Shown in pieces: positions 2,473 through 24,638 of a stretch of DNA of 64,000 bases (position 1 is its first letter; each line of letters opens with the position of its first letter). Below the pieces are notes generated by a model. That model was not told the DNA's origin and searched no databases. It saw only the letters and a program-made list of their open reading frames with translations. This stretch comes from Armatimonadota bacterium (GTDB taxonomy: Bacteria > Armatimonadota > Zipacnadia > Zipacnadales > JABUFB01), in assembly GCA_013314775.1 (NCBI GenBank), contig JABUFB010000009.1, positions 186,001 through 250,000 on the forward strand. Reading direction: 5' to 3'. The position numbers and the translations under genes are program-made.

Positions 2473-3526
2473 GAGCGTCCTCATTATCCGCATGAGCGCC
2501 CTGGGCGACATCATCTGCGCCCTCCCGGTGCTGCGGGCCATCCGCGACTCCTTCCCCGAGACCCGGATCGGCTGGGTGGTGGACAGCCGCTTCGAGGATC
2601 TGCTGGCGCCCGACCCAGACATCCACCGGCTTCACGTCGCCCCGGTCTCGCGCTGGAAGAAGCTGTCGAAGTCCCCCCTCGCCTGGCCACGGCTGATTTC
2701 GGAACGCCGGGCGCTGGGCCGCGAACTGCGGCAAATGCAGTATGAGGTCTGTCTGGACTTGCAGGGGATTCTCAAGAGCGGTTTCATCGCCCGCGCAGCC
2801 GGCGCGAAGCGCACCCTTCACATGGGCAGCGGAAGGATCGCGAAGCGCACCTGGCTGTTCCCCGGAGAACGTATAGCGCCCATCAGCGCCCATGCCGTTG
2901 AGCGCATGCTGCCTCTTGCCGGCGCAATTGGGGCTGATATCTCCCGGCCGCGCTTCGACCTGTTCATCCCACAATCCGACCGGACCCATGCCGAGCACTT
3001 GTTCGCTGCCCATTCCTTTGCCACCACGGGCCCGGTTGTTGCTCTCAATCCAGGAGCCGCCGCAGTTCACCGCATGTGGGCAGCGGACAGGTTCGCGACC
3101 CTCGCAGGCCGGCTCCACCGGGAACTCGACGCCCGTGTGGTTGTTATCGGAGGGCCGTCGGAAGTGCCCCTCGCACAGGGCATCGCCCGAGACTCCGGCA
3201 TTGACCCGCTCTGCACCGCGGGGAAGACCACCTTGCTGCAACTGGCGGCCGTACTGGACCGGTGTGATGTGCTGGTCACCGGCGATACCGGGCCGCAGCA
3301 CATCGCTTACGCTCTGGGCAAGCATGTGGTCTCCCTCTTTGGTCCGGCAAATCCCCTGAGCACCGGGCCGTACGGTCCAGGACACGTGGTGATCCAGCAC
3401 TCCTTCCCCTGCCAGCCGTGCTACGCGCACCCTTCCTGCAAGGACTTTGCCTGCATGAAAGCCATCGAGGTGGACGAAGTCTTCGACGCGGTTGCGCGTG
3501 TGCTTGCGAACGCGCAGCCCTCCTGA
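2453..3526 (+). CDS. Glycosyltransferase family 9 (heptosyltransferase-like, LPS core)
   Basis: 357-residue GT-B protein of the GT9 family, which adds ADP-heptose or a similar sugar to the Kdo-lipid A core in the cytoplasm. It begins with the typical N-terminal strand and loop VLIIRMSALGDIICALPVL and has the C-terminal donor-binding part GDTGPQHIAYALGKHVVSLFG. The usual ATG at 2492 would cut off the conserved first strand, so the start is placed at TTG 2453; a GGCGGAG ribosome binding site lies about six bases before it. It overlaps the acyltransferase gene by 20 bases. Four cysteines near the C-terminus (FPCQPC...PSC...FAC) are common in this family. The exact sugar is unknown. Confidence 0.82.
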   Translation: MPPAGPESVLIIRMSALGDIICALPVLRAIRDSFPETRIGWVVDSRFEDLLAPDPDIHRLHVAPVSRWKKLSKSPLAWPRLISERRALGRELRQMQYEVCLDLQGILKSGFIARAAGAKRTLHMGSGRIAKRTWLFPGERIAPISAHAVERMLPLAGAIGADISRPRFDLFIPQSDRTHAEHLFAAHSFATTGPVVALNPGAAAVHRMWAADRFATLAGRLHRELDARVVVIGGPSEVPLAQGIARDSGIDPLCTAGKTTLLQLAAVLDRCDVLVTGDTGPQHIAYALGKHVVSLFGPANPLSTGPYGPGHVVIQHSFPCQPCYAHPSCKDFACMKAIEVDEVFDAVARVLANAQPS

Positions 3527-21384: not shown

Positions 21385-24078
21385 ATGTCCGGATCGCCCC
21401 AGCGTAGAGCCGCGCAGACCCAAGGATCACCTGCCGATGTCCGTGAGCCCGCCTACGATGGGGTGGCAGTGGTACTGGCTCGCATCGTGCCCTTCCGGCT
21501 GCATGGCACCGCCCGCCCCGTGGAACAACTCCGGCAGGCCATTCGAAACGCATTTGGAGTCAAGGACCGGGACATCCTGCGCTACGCCTGCATGGGCCGG
21601 CAGGATATGCTCTACCTGGTTCGTACCCGGCGCCTTGAGCATGTTGGACGCATCTGGCGCCCCCGCGGGGTGCGCAAGCTGGATATCCAGTATGGCTACA
21701 TGCCCGCCGAACGCGCCCGGGAGTTGTTTGAGAACGCCCCCAGTCATCCGCCTTTGGTCCTGATGATGTATGGCAAGCTGGATGACCGGTACCTCGCGGG
21801 CCTGACAGACCCTCGACAGTTGTGGGACCTGCCCCTGATGCGGTTCAGCGAGAACTGGTTCGCCATCCGCACCCTGGGTTGGAATGACGTCCTGCTGGTG
21901 CGCTTCAGCGACCGTTTATCGGACCTGCAGTCGCTGGCGCGAGAGACCTGGGAGACTGTGCCGCCCGACTCGAATGACCCTCACGCCCGGCTCTTTGTGC
22001 GCACCTATAGCGTGGTGGGGTTCAGGCACGGCAGGGGAGCCGGCACTGCGGCACTGCGCAAGGTGGCGGCGGATGACATGATCCGGGCACCCCGCATCGA
22101 GACCCGCATTCGGCCCGGCTGGACCGACGCCATCTGCGAGAGCGTGTACAGGATACTACCTGCCACAGGCGCGCTCCCGGAGTTCCTCAACGAACTGGGT
22201 CATGAGGACGGGACCATCTGTTTCAAGAGCGACTCCGACCCTGGCATTCCGAAAGTGAACGCCAGGCAGTTCCTGCAGACATACTACAACGAATTCCTGC
22301 CCGCCGTGTCGGGGTACGTCCACTCAACGCAGTTGTGCATCGGCGAGTTCGAGCGCGAGATCGGCACCTGCGCCTGGGACCCTGAACGGCCGACTCGCGG
22401 CCACACGGATTTCCGGTATCTCAGCCTGGATGCTGTATCGGACCGTCTTGTGGAGGGGCTCTCCAGCAGCATCACCGCCTCCAGCGTAGACTCACTGCAC
22501 GCCTTTTATGAAGCCTGCGACTGGAGCATGGAGAACGAGGCCCTGCGCACTACTTTCGGCGACTTGTACTGGCACCTTCGCTGGCTTCTGGCAGAGCGCT
22601 GGGCGGTGCAGGGCGACCAACCAGGACGCACGCCCGCGGAAGCCGCGAGTGCGCTGGGCGACTTCGCCGAGAGTCTTGGGCCGGAGCTCAGGCTCCTGGG
22701 AGACAGCTTCTCGCAGCGCCTGAACGGGGCCTACTACGGGATAATGGGCTACCAGGCCGAGCACATGTTCTCCCACACCATGAGCCTGCACAAGATCGTG
22801 GTGGGCTTATGGGCCCTGCACACAGTGGCGCTCAAGCGCCTGAGCTCCTATGCACGCGATTCCCGGGAGTTCACCCCGCGCGGCTGCTGGATCGTCAGTC
22901 ACGGCGAACGCCCCATGGTCGGCGGCGAACCCAGCGGCCCCACTCAGCCGCCCCAGTCCGCCGCATGCAAGGTGGCCCAGATCCCGTCTCAGGGCGTGGT
23001 TGCCCTCGAGACCATCGCCACCGAAACCGCCCATGAGATCGGCCACATGCTGATTCACGAGTACATCGGCATGGACCTGATTTCCACGGCGGCCGTGGGG
23101 CCGGACGTTGTGTTCTCGCGCGGGAACTTCCTGGCGTTTTACCAGGCCGCCTTCGAGGAGTTCGGGCGTTTGAACCAGGAGGCGCAGCGGCTGACGGTCA
23201 CCGAGATCGCCCGGCGATGCATCGCCAGTGGGGACAAAGAAGGTGCAGAGGACGCCCTGCAGGAGGCCTACGACGGGGCGGTGGAGAGCTTCCGGGACGA
23301 GTATCGGCAGGCGCTGGACTGGCACCATGCCGCGGCGCTGGTGTCCGAGGTAGCAGCGGATACAGTGGCGATCTCCCAGTTCGTGGGAGAGCGATTCGAC
23401 CTCTATGCTTCCCGCATCCTGCATCACGTGCCCTTCCTGAACGCAGCCATGGCCGTACCCGCCCTGCAGCGCGCATACCTGCAATTCTGCCTGTTCGGAA
23501 TGCCCGACGAACTCGGCCTACTGCTGCCCTATGACCGCCTCGTAGACCCCATTGAGGGCGTCACCACCGCGAGGAGCTGGGCGCGCAGTATGCATGAATC
23601 TCAACCGCGCCACTACCTGTCCGATCAGGGACGCTGGGACCAGTTCGCCCAGCGCCTCGACGAGATCGCCGCATCCGAGACCGGCCTCCGAACGCCCGAT
23701 CCTGAATTGTTGAAGGCCGCGCAGCAACGGTTCATTGACCTGGGGCCCGCAGCAATCGTGATCGCGGCGCTCCTGGAAGAAACCATGCTCCAGGCGTGGG
23801 CTGTGGCACGCTCGGTGGATGCTGAAAACTCAGGGGATGATGGCCTGTATACCCAGGCGCGAGACGCCTTCCGCGGTCTCGTGCGGGCTGCGGGAATGCC
23901 GGAAGAGGAGCGCTTCGATACGCGCGTCGACAACTACGAACGTCTGTGGCACGTGGCCGCGAAACTGCTGACGAGTATCTATGAACCGGACAGAGCGGGG
24001 ACGGTGGAGTTCGAGGAGACGCAGGGCTCGCCTTGGAGCCCGGTATTTGAGAGGGTCGCCCGGGCGAGACGAATTTGA
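21385..24078 (+). CDS. Large unknown protein with HExxH metallohydrolase motif
   Basis: 897-residue protein that I do not recognise as a named family. No signal peptide or clear membrane segment is seen, so it is probably cytoplasmic. The first 240 residues are mixed alpha/beta; the middle is helical. Residues 546-560 read ETAHEIGHMLIHEYI: HEIGH (550-554) is the HExxH zinc-binding signature. A Glu in VSEVAADTVA (Glu655) lies about 100 residues later and could be a third ligand. This fits a zinc peptidase-like site, but inactive homologues exist. Start ATG 21385 follows CGGAGGAC. The gene has its own promoter at 21264-21292 and ends before the 24110-24140 terminator. Function is unknown. Confidence 0.6.
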   Translation: MSGSPQRRAAQTQGSPADVREPAYDGVAVVLARIVPFRLHGTARPVEQLRQAIRNAFGVKDRDILRYACMGRQDMLYLVRTRRLEHVGRIWRPRGVRKLDIQYGYMPAERARELFENAPSHPPLVLMMYGKLDDRYLAGLTDPRQLWDLPLMRFSENWFAIRTLGWNDVLLVRFSDRLSDLQSLARETWETVPPDSNDPHARLFVRTYSVVGFRHGRGAGTAALRKVAADDMIRAPRIETRIRPGWTDAICESVYRILPATGALPEFLNELGHEDGTICFKSDSDPGIPKVNARQFLQTYYNEFLPAVSGYVHSTQLCIGEFEREIGTCAWDPERPTRGHTDFRYLSLDAVSDRLVEGLSSSITASSVDSLHAFYEACDWSMENEALRTTFGDLYWHLRWLLAERWAVQGDQPGRTPAEAASALGDFAESLGPELRLLGDSFSQRLNGAYYGIMGYQAEHMFSHTMSLHKIVVGLWALHTVALKRLSSYARDSREFTPRGCWIVSHGERPMVGGEPSGPTQPPQSAACKVAQIPSQGVVALETIATETAHEIGHMLIHEYIGMDLISTAAVGPDVVFSRGNFLAFYQAAFEEFGRLNQEAQRLTVTEIARRCIASGDKEGAEDALQEAYDGAVESFRDEYRQALDWHHAAALVSEVAADTVAISQFVGERFDLYASRILHHVPFLNAAMAVPALQRAYLQFCLFGMPDELGLLLPYDRLVDPIEGVTTARSWARSMHESQPRHYLSDQGRWDQFAQRLDEIAASETGLRTPDPELLKAAQQRFIDLGPAAIVIAALLEETMLQAWAVARSVDAENSGDDGLYTQARDAFRGLVRAAGMPEEERFDTRVDNYERLWHVAAKLLTSIYEPDRAGTVEFEETQGSPWSPVFERVARARRI

Positions 24079-24157: not shown

Positions 24158-24340
24158 TCAAGTACTGCGGCGTCGCTCAGTGATGACGGGCCGCGCGGGG
24201 ACCGCAAAGGACGTGAACCCCGCCATGGGCGCAATGAACTGCGCCTTCTCGGGATTGCGGTTCGCGCCCGAGTTGCCCTGTTCCAGGATCTTCCTGACGC
24301 CTTCTTCGGCTCGGCGAAGCAGTTCTGCGCGACTGGGCAC
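24158..24340 (-). CDS. Small protein of unknown function with own promoter and terminator
   Basis: 60-residue reading frame on the minus strand. It begins MPSRAELLRRAEEGVRKIL, a charged amphipathic helix, followed by a basic, Pro/Ala-containing tail ending ERRRST. Start GTG 24340 has an AGGAGG ribosome binding site seven bases before it; an ATG at 24346 is in frame but overlaps that site, so it is less likely. Upstream, TTGACT and TAATAT with an 18-base spacer (24378-24407) form a near-consensus promoter, and the strong terminator at 24110-24140 follows the stop. This complete set of signals makes it more likely to be a real gene than most short frames. No homologue is recognised. Confidence 0.6.
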   Translation of the reverse strand: MPSRAELLRRAEEGVRKILEQGNSGANRNPEKAQFIAPMAGFTSFAVPARPVITERRRST

Positions 24341-24377
24341 GAACATTCCTCCTCAGCCGGTCCACTTATCATGTGGG

Positions 24378-24407
24378 ATATTACACCAATCGGCTTTCCG
24401 GAGTCAA
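24378..24407 (-). promoter_or_regulatory. Near-consensus sigma-70-type promoter for the small gene
   Basis: On the minus strand TTGACT (24402-24407) is followed by an 18-base spacer and TAATAT (24378-24383). Transcription would start near 24371 and give a leader of about 30 bases before GTG 24340. This is among the best promoter matches in the window. Confidence 0.75.
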
Positions 24408-24457
24408 CCGCGCCGGCTTTGATGGTGTAGCCGCTGGTTGTCGACAGGGACGGAAAA

Positions 24458-24527
24458 GGCTACCCTCTGTGGTGTCAAACACAATAACCGGCTCATGGCA
24501 TAACGCCGTGGGCCAAGGAGGGTAGCC
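24458..24527 (+). ncRNA. Structured RNA-like element enclosing a ribosome binding site
   Basis: Three helices can be drawn. P1: GGCTACCCTC (24458-24467) with GAGGGTAGCC (24518-24527), a perfect 10-bp stem. P2: a 4-bp GTGT/ACAC hairpin (24472-24482). P3: a 10-bp helix, bases 24490-24499 with 24505-24514, closed by loop ATAAC, with two G-U pairs. This gives a three-way junction. The AAGGAGG ribosome binding site (24515-24521) for the short frame at 24530 runs into the 3' strand of P1, so pairing would hide it. It could be a riboswitch-like leader, another regulatory RNA, or the inverted ends of a transposon fragment. Confidence 0.45.
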
Positions 24528-24529
24528 GG

Positions 24530-24613
24530 ATGAGTATTCCTCAGACCGATCACGAAGACCTTCGGCAAGATTTGCAGCGGCGAGTGTGGGACCGAGTCGT
24601 TCGGGACGCTTGA
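24530..24613 (+). CDS. Short reading frame (27 residues) after the structured element
   Basis: ATG 24530 lies eight bases after AAGGAGG and encodes MSIPQTDHEDLRQDLQRRVW plus seven more residues. The stop overlaps the -35 box of the tRNA promoter (TTGACA, 24610-24615). It could be a leader or small peptide, or the N-terminal remnant of a transposase or other gene. Charge and helix-forming residues are typical for a short soluble peptide, but it is too short to identify. Confidence 0.35.
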   Translation: MSIPQTDHEDLRQDLQRRVWDRVVRDA

Positions 24614-24638
24614 CAAACCCTTCTGCGTGTTGTATGTT
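24610..24638 (+). promoter_or_regulatory. Promoter of the tRNA cluster
   Basis: A perfect -35 box TTGACA (24610-24615) is 17 bases from TATGTT (24633-24638). The expected start near 24645 is about 75 bases before the first tRNA. It is the best candidate for expression of the five-tRNA unit and perhaps galU after it. Confidence 0.75.

Follow-up and report, generated by a model that had tools for sequence, protein, structure and literature searches.

The window analyzed here is the whole 64,000-nucleotide stretch of DNA from an Armatimonadota bacterium. Between a small gene on the minus strand and a tRNA unit on the plus strand, it contains a structured leader at positions 24458 to 24527, followed by a 27-codon frame at 24530 to 24610, whose TGA overlaps the -35 hexamer TTGACA (24610) of the tRNA promoter. 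Further upstream, an 897-amino-acid ORF (21385 to 24078, plus strand) has no Pfam match at E values up to 1, contains the motif HEIGH (HExxH, zinc-peptidase-like) within ..TAHEIGHMLIHE.., and is 86% identical at the DNA level in the sister-species genome G001. The small minus-strand ORF (24158 to 24346, 62 amino acids) comes with a sigma-70 promoter of its own and with a hairpin resembling a terminator (24134 to 24116); it likewise has no Pfam match, and its DNA is 85% identical in G001. The features of the locus are as follows.

24378..24407, minus strand: divergent sigma-70 promoter of the small minus-strand ORF, TTGACT-18-TAATAT, from a promoter scan
24423..24447, plus strand: left terminal inverted repeat of ISKra4 type, tGGTGTAGCCGCTGGTTGTCGACAG, aligned with GGGTGCAACCGCTGGTTGTCGGCAG, which is present four times in G001
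24438..24466, plus strand: candidate internal transposase promoter, TTGTCG-17-TACCCT, weak (7 of 12 matches), with the -10 within the P1 5' arm
24458..24467, plus strand: P1 5' arm, GGCTACCCTC, the strand pairing with the ribosome binding site region
24468..24489, plus strand: junction and small P2 hairpin
24490..24514, plus strand: P3 hairpin, from folding
24515..24521, plus strand: Shine-Dalgarno sequence AAGGAGG of the former transposase gene, read directly and extending into the P1 3' arm
24518..24527, plus strand: P1 3' arm, GAGGGTAGCC, ending 2 nt ahead of the ATG at 24530
24530..24601, plus strand: first ~24 codons of a truncated transposase, MSIPQTDHEDLRQDLQRRVWDRVV..., at the same position as ATGGATATTCGGCCACACG in G001
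24602..24610, plus strand: truncation junction, GAC GCT TGA (D, A, stop), the end of the sister-species gene that precedes the tRNAs

Structure of the leader

Read directly from the sequence, P1 is a perfect 10-bp stem (24458 to 24467 with 24518 to 24527), and it is extended by an 11th pair, U-G, between 24468 and 24517. P3 pairs 24490 to 24499 with 24505 to 24514 (10 bp, including two G-U pairs) around a five-base loop. The initial annotation had described a three-way junction; P1 and P3 are as it stated, but the P2 hairpin of the window is weak, with 3 to 4 bp and a register that is not unique. Positions 24450 to 24535 fold with a free energy of -42.3 kcal/mol, compared with a mean of -24.7 for shuffled sequences (z = -5.47), and none of 200 shuffles equaled this value. 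The 11-bp helix at the position of the Shine-Dalgarno sequence and start codon was reached by none of 100 shuffles. The stem, the hairpins, and the covered ribosome binding site of the window leader are real, and the proposal of a structured leader over a ribosome binding site is borne out with its coordinates correct. At the gathering score, an Rfam covariance search of the window matched tRNAs alone and no family for the leader, in agreement with the earlier statement that it belongs to no known riboswitch class. Below the gathering score, the Rfam matches were of chance level only, the top one being to a microRNA model (18.7 bits, E = 1).

Identity of the element

In G001, which belongs to the same genus and is the nearest genome compared, the left end occurs four times, with every copy starting GGGTGCAACCGC[T/A]GGTTGTCGGCAGGGACGGAAAAGGCTACCC and running to a contig end. 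The flanks of these copies are unrelated: one lies within an apparent ORF (C742), one beside a gene that reads as ftsZ (C261), and two lie elsewhere. A multicopy mobile element produces such contig breaks at one common sequence in a short-read assembly; no right end was found for the G001 copies, since the interior of the element is missing from that assembly. In the window, the first G of the GGG start of the left repeat is replaced by T. Four copies of a related left end are present in G007, and a class-wide search recovered a complete, diverged copy of 1459 bp in G006 (L034). This copy contains, in order, a 25-bp left repeat, a leader with GCTACCCTCCTG...CAGGAGGGTAGC, an ATG, a 439-codon gene, and a right repeat. 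Its terminal repeats begin with GGG and read GGGTGCGAGTTTAGATTGTCGGCAG at the left and the reverse complement at the right. The 439-amino-acid transposase scored 291.7 bits against NF033572, the NCBI model of ISKra4, for which the cutoff is 205.

The window's own genome (G000) has two further ISKra4 elements. The N terminus of the window relic resembles the N termini of ISKra4 transposases from its own genome and a related one (MSISQQSRADLQ.. and MSIDQQATADLQ..), a similarity that is weak alone (E values of 0.05 to 0.5); 27 residues are too short for a significant protein similarity score. A DNA search of 100 relatives gave, outside G001, matches of chance size only, and a plasmid DNA search gave a single match, judged to be chance. 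The genome-wide protein scan returned two loci, one of which is the G006 element already known, and viral scans for the transposase returned three matches, distant or partial. Solitary decayed left ends with no transposase body after them were observed at G023:C196 (L035), G023:C695 (L182), and G035:C126 (L178). A viral pattern scan with GGGACGGAAAAGGCTACCC gave 47 matches, all in one phage gene that has the same 19-mer by coincidence, and covariance matches in G254 and at 2973 to 3046 of the window were judged to be chance. Readings of the repeat end as a RAYT/REP, IS200/IS605, IS110 bridge-RNA, or group II intron sequence were dropped because an ISKra4 transposase lies downstream of the same leader in G006.

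Together, these comparisons make it highly probable that 24423 to 24601 is what remains of an insertion sequence (IS) of the ISKra4 family, reduced by a later truncation to its left end, and that 24458 to 24527 is its transposase leader, with a stem that would lower translation. Among the options offered in the initial annotation, that of a mobile-element relic was correct, given the repeat copies in G001 and the intact element in G006. The "short inverted ends" that it attached to this option correspond only in part to what was found, since a terminal repeat exists but is separate (24423 to 24447) and the stem itself is internal, just before the transposase start.

Truncation and insertion site

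Of the element, the window retains the left repeat and the leader, followed by the first ~24 codons of the transposase; the transposase body and the right end are absent. Starting at 24602 and continuing to the right, the window shows 95% identity to G001:C765, which carries the tRNA unit, and to the left of 24602 the two are unrelated. The G001 gene ends ..EDARDA-stop and the window frame ends ..VRDA-stop in the same reading frame, which indicates that D-A-stop is the end of that gene. Judged by this alignment, the 27-residue frame consists of 24 to 25 relic codons that run into the final codons and stop of a neighboring gene since lost; it is a deletion fusion and not a gene. In G001, the gene preceding the tRNA unit (G001:C765, approximately 1500 to 2810, L025) has a product that appears SecB-like by eye (..FVLPTVNFVAEVERKLR..EDARDA-stop), and it has apparently been lost from the window genome through the same deletion.

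At the other side of the relic, the -35 hexamer of the divergent promoter (TTGACT, 24407) begins 15 nt from the element end, with TAATAT at 24378. A sigma-70 promoter 13 to 17 nt away was present at 8 of the 14 ISKra4-type left ends drawn from five genomes (G000, G001, G006, G007, and G023), against a background of 0.0008 (binomial P of ~5e-22). A preference for landing beside sigma-A promoters has been published for the ISKra4 group (PMC3942029). The promoter neighboring the G006 copy precedes what reads as RNase P RNA. The IS in the window would have landed ~15 nt upstream of the divergent sigma-70 promoter, and its body, its right end, and the flanking DNA up to 24602 would have been lost later.

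The target-site duplication of the ISKra4 family is about 8 to 9 bp. The flanks of the G000:C8 copy (AGCAGCCGG and AGAAGCCGG) are equal at 8 of 9 positions, and no target-site duplication was found at the G000:C11 and G006 copies. Homology of the window to the promoter region of the small gene in G001 ends at 24411, beyond which the sequences differ. At the same place after the orthologous promoter, G001 (C172, near 5325; L172 and L173) has the sequence TGAGCTAGTAACATACATGGGTTACAGCGGTCAGGG.., which in L089 of G001 likewise stands ahead of a fragment of an ISKra4-like transposase. Possibly, this target was taken by a second element in G001.

Recurrence of the leader stem in ISKra4 elements

A stem of 10 to 16 bp covering the Shine-Dalgarno region, with its 3' arm ending 2 to 8 nt before the start codon, was found at 10 of 14 family loci, whose starts were hand-checked and which were chosen partly after an earlier stem scan, so that the proportion is not unbiased. 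For each of these 10 stems, no more than 2 of 100 shuffles did as well, and an 11th locus, L104, has a weaker, 9-bp helix. The stem arms differ in sequence (GGTCACCCCTGTATCG/CGATACAGGGGTGACC, GCCGTCCTCTTG/CGGGAGGACGGC, GATCACCCTT/AAGGGTGATC, and GAGCCTCCTTGCGA/TCGCAAGGAGGCTT). The P1 arms by element are as follows.

G000:C8: GGTCACCCCTGTATCG
G000:C11: GCCGTCCTCTTG
G007: GATCACCCTT
G053: TGCTATCCTTCC
G127: GAGCCTCCTTGCGA
G274: CCTCCTGGAG

In several independent sequence versions, the predicted stem thus covers the transposase start signal, and the finding that unrelated stem sequences cover the Shine-Dalgarno sequence indicates that base pairing itself is maintained. When starts were chosen automatically and folding used the partition function, 8 of 21 ISKra4 loci had a Shine-Dalgarno sequence hidden to an extent seen in at most 3 of 60 shuffles; the same held for 4 of 20 loci of IS256, which served as a control, and for 1 of 36 ORFs of the window.

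In one subgroup, the stem covering the Shine-Dalgarno sequence is predicted to close a three-way junction. Within this subgroup, which is that of the window, G007 has GCTAGCCTC/GAGGCTAGC where the others have GCTACCCTC/GAGGGTAGC. This C-G to G-C swap within P1 is, on the aligned leaders, a clean compensatory change. In G001 and G007, P2 is a 5-bp helix built from different bases, and P3 recurs, again with different bases, in G001, G006, G023, and G007. The compensatory changes that the initial annotation had named as support for a structured RNA are therefore seen at the family level. A formal count of covarying pairs on the four closest leaders, in which P1 is near-invariant, was not significant and is uninformative. 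No clear stem was seen in any of the five ISKra4 copies annotated on plasmids, of which four are cyanobacterial and one is gammaproteobacterial, and several ISKra4 loci of the phylum likewise lack one. The leader covering the Shine-Dalgarno sequence is common and not universal, occurring in about half of the ISKra4 transposases examined. No description of a leader structure for the ISKra4 family was found in the literature searched.

Possible roles of the leader

Pairing of P1 with the Shine-Dalgarno region would leave transcripts that bear the whole leader poorly translated and the transposase scarce. By analogy with other insertion sequences, the leader in live copies likely throttles transposase translation, and this throttling is perhaps confined to transcripts that read in from outside. 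Under such read-in protection, the transposase promoter would be inside the left end, with its -10 box at the P1 5' arm or directly behind it; the element's own mRNA would then lack that arm and be translated, and outside read-through would fold P1 and stay silent. This possibility is advanced tentatively, from the position of the best internal promoter-like sites, which fall into two types in different subgroups and would start transcription just past the 5' arm. The hexamers and spacing of TTGTCG-17-TACCCT are identical in the window, G001, and G006, and its -10 starts 2 to 3 nt into P1 in all three. In three other elements, the host's intact L129 (G000:C8) and L107 (G000:C11) and also G007:C547, a possible -10 box, GAGAAT or GAGAAC, lies 15 to 16 nt past the start of P1. 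Weak promoter-like sites occupy a fitting position in six of eight elements. However, these sites score only 7 to 8 of 12, the rules of this lineage's promoters may differ, and the repeated G007 element has no site at that threshold.

For elements that land next to promoters, guarding translation against read-in would be biologically sensible; these promoters are active, so read-in is a real risk. The elements nevertheless face away from the targeted promoter, which leaves other promoters as the source of any read-in. Extending this proposal to much of the ISKra4 family, as a maintained, fast-evolving leader that acts as a read-in switch, silent from neighboring promoters and open on the element's own short transcript, is more speculative and rather unlikely.

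It is improbable that the inverted repeat acts as DNA, either as a transposase binding site or as a cruciform, instead of as RNA. Its subterminal position within the IS would fit such a role, and IS ends often bear internal repeats. However, the 3' arm is fixed 2 to 8 nt from the start codon, at the Shine-Dalgarno sequence, while its sequence varies freely, whereas a binding site would be expected to keep its sequence and to occupy both ends. In the intact G006 element, the stem is found solely at the transposase end.

A ligand-sensing leader or host riboswitch for a small peptide, to which a stable three-way junction above a ribosome binding site might point, is very improbable. The leader has no Rfam match, its copies are found at the ends of insertion sequences, in surroundings unrelated to one another, and ahead of transposases, its junction sequence and layout are not conserved among elements, and the regulated 27-residue peptide once envisaged is a product of truncation, composed of about 24 transposase codons and the last codons and stop of the lost neighbor. 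Equally improbable is a leader or attenuator governing read-through into the tRNA genes, as the initial annotation had also suggested: the leader lies in the same direction ~200 bp upstream of the first tRNA, but the tRNA unit has its own promoter (TTGACA-17-TATGTT, 24610 to 24638), and the homologous unit of G001, 95% identical from 24602, has no such element upstream.

As part of a truncated ISKra4 left end, the window leader has been left without anything to regulate and is most likely inert. The apparent new riboswitch is thereby explained as an IS relic, and dead IS left ends may pass for orphan riboswitches in genome scans.

Comparison with known systems

The element agrees with the ISKra4 group (p-MULT 4, Mutator-like DDE) in the NF033572 match of its intact relative, in its GGG ends, and in its insertion 13 to 17 nt from sigma-A promoters (PMC3942029). 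It differs in that only a left-end relic survives in the window, lacking both the transposase body and the right end. A further comparison is with the read-in protection of IS10 and IS50, in which a stem forms only in outside-derived transcripts and blocks the transposase start. In those elements, the pairing strand comes from the outer end of the IS, whereas the ISKra4-type stem is internal, ~34 to 57 nt in from the end, and the promoter is placed only tentatively.

For IS200 tnpA, a stem-loop in the 5' untranslated region (UTR) has been stated to hide the transposase ribosome binding site (PMC12594629), and IS200 is also under the control of an antisense RNA and Hfq (PMC8450116). The ISKra4-type leader shares the hidden transposase ribosome binding site with IS200 but belongs to an unrelated transposase type and has an unrelated sequence. 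In ISPpu9 (IS110/IS492 family), the long 5' UTR of tnp folds over the ribosome binding site, and experiments showed that weakening this fold raises translation (PMC8450116). The covering of the ribosome binding site by the 5' UTR is again the same, whereas ISPpu9 differs in its DEDD transposase and its regulation by two small RNAs. The principle is thus already known from other IS families, and its recurrence in ISKra4 was not found in the literature searched. The hiding of the transposase start in a leader stem, as in IS200 and ISPpu9, is seen again in ISKra4-type elements, whose stem sequences are unrelated.
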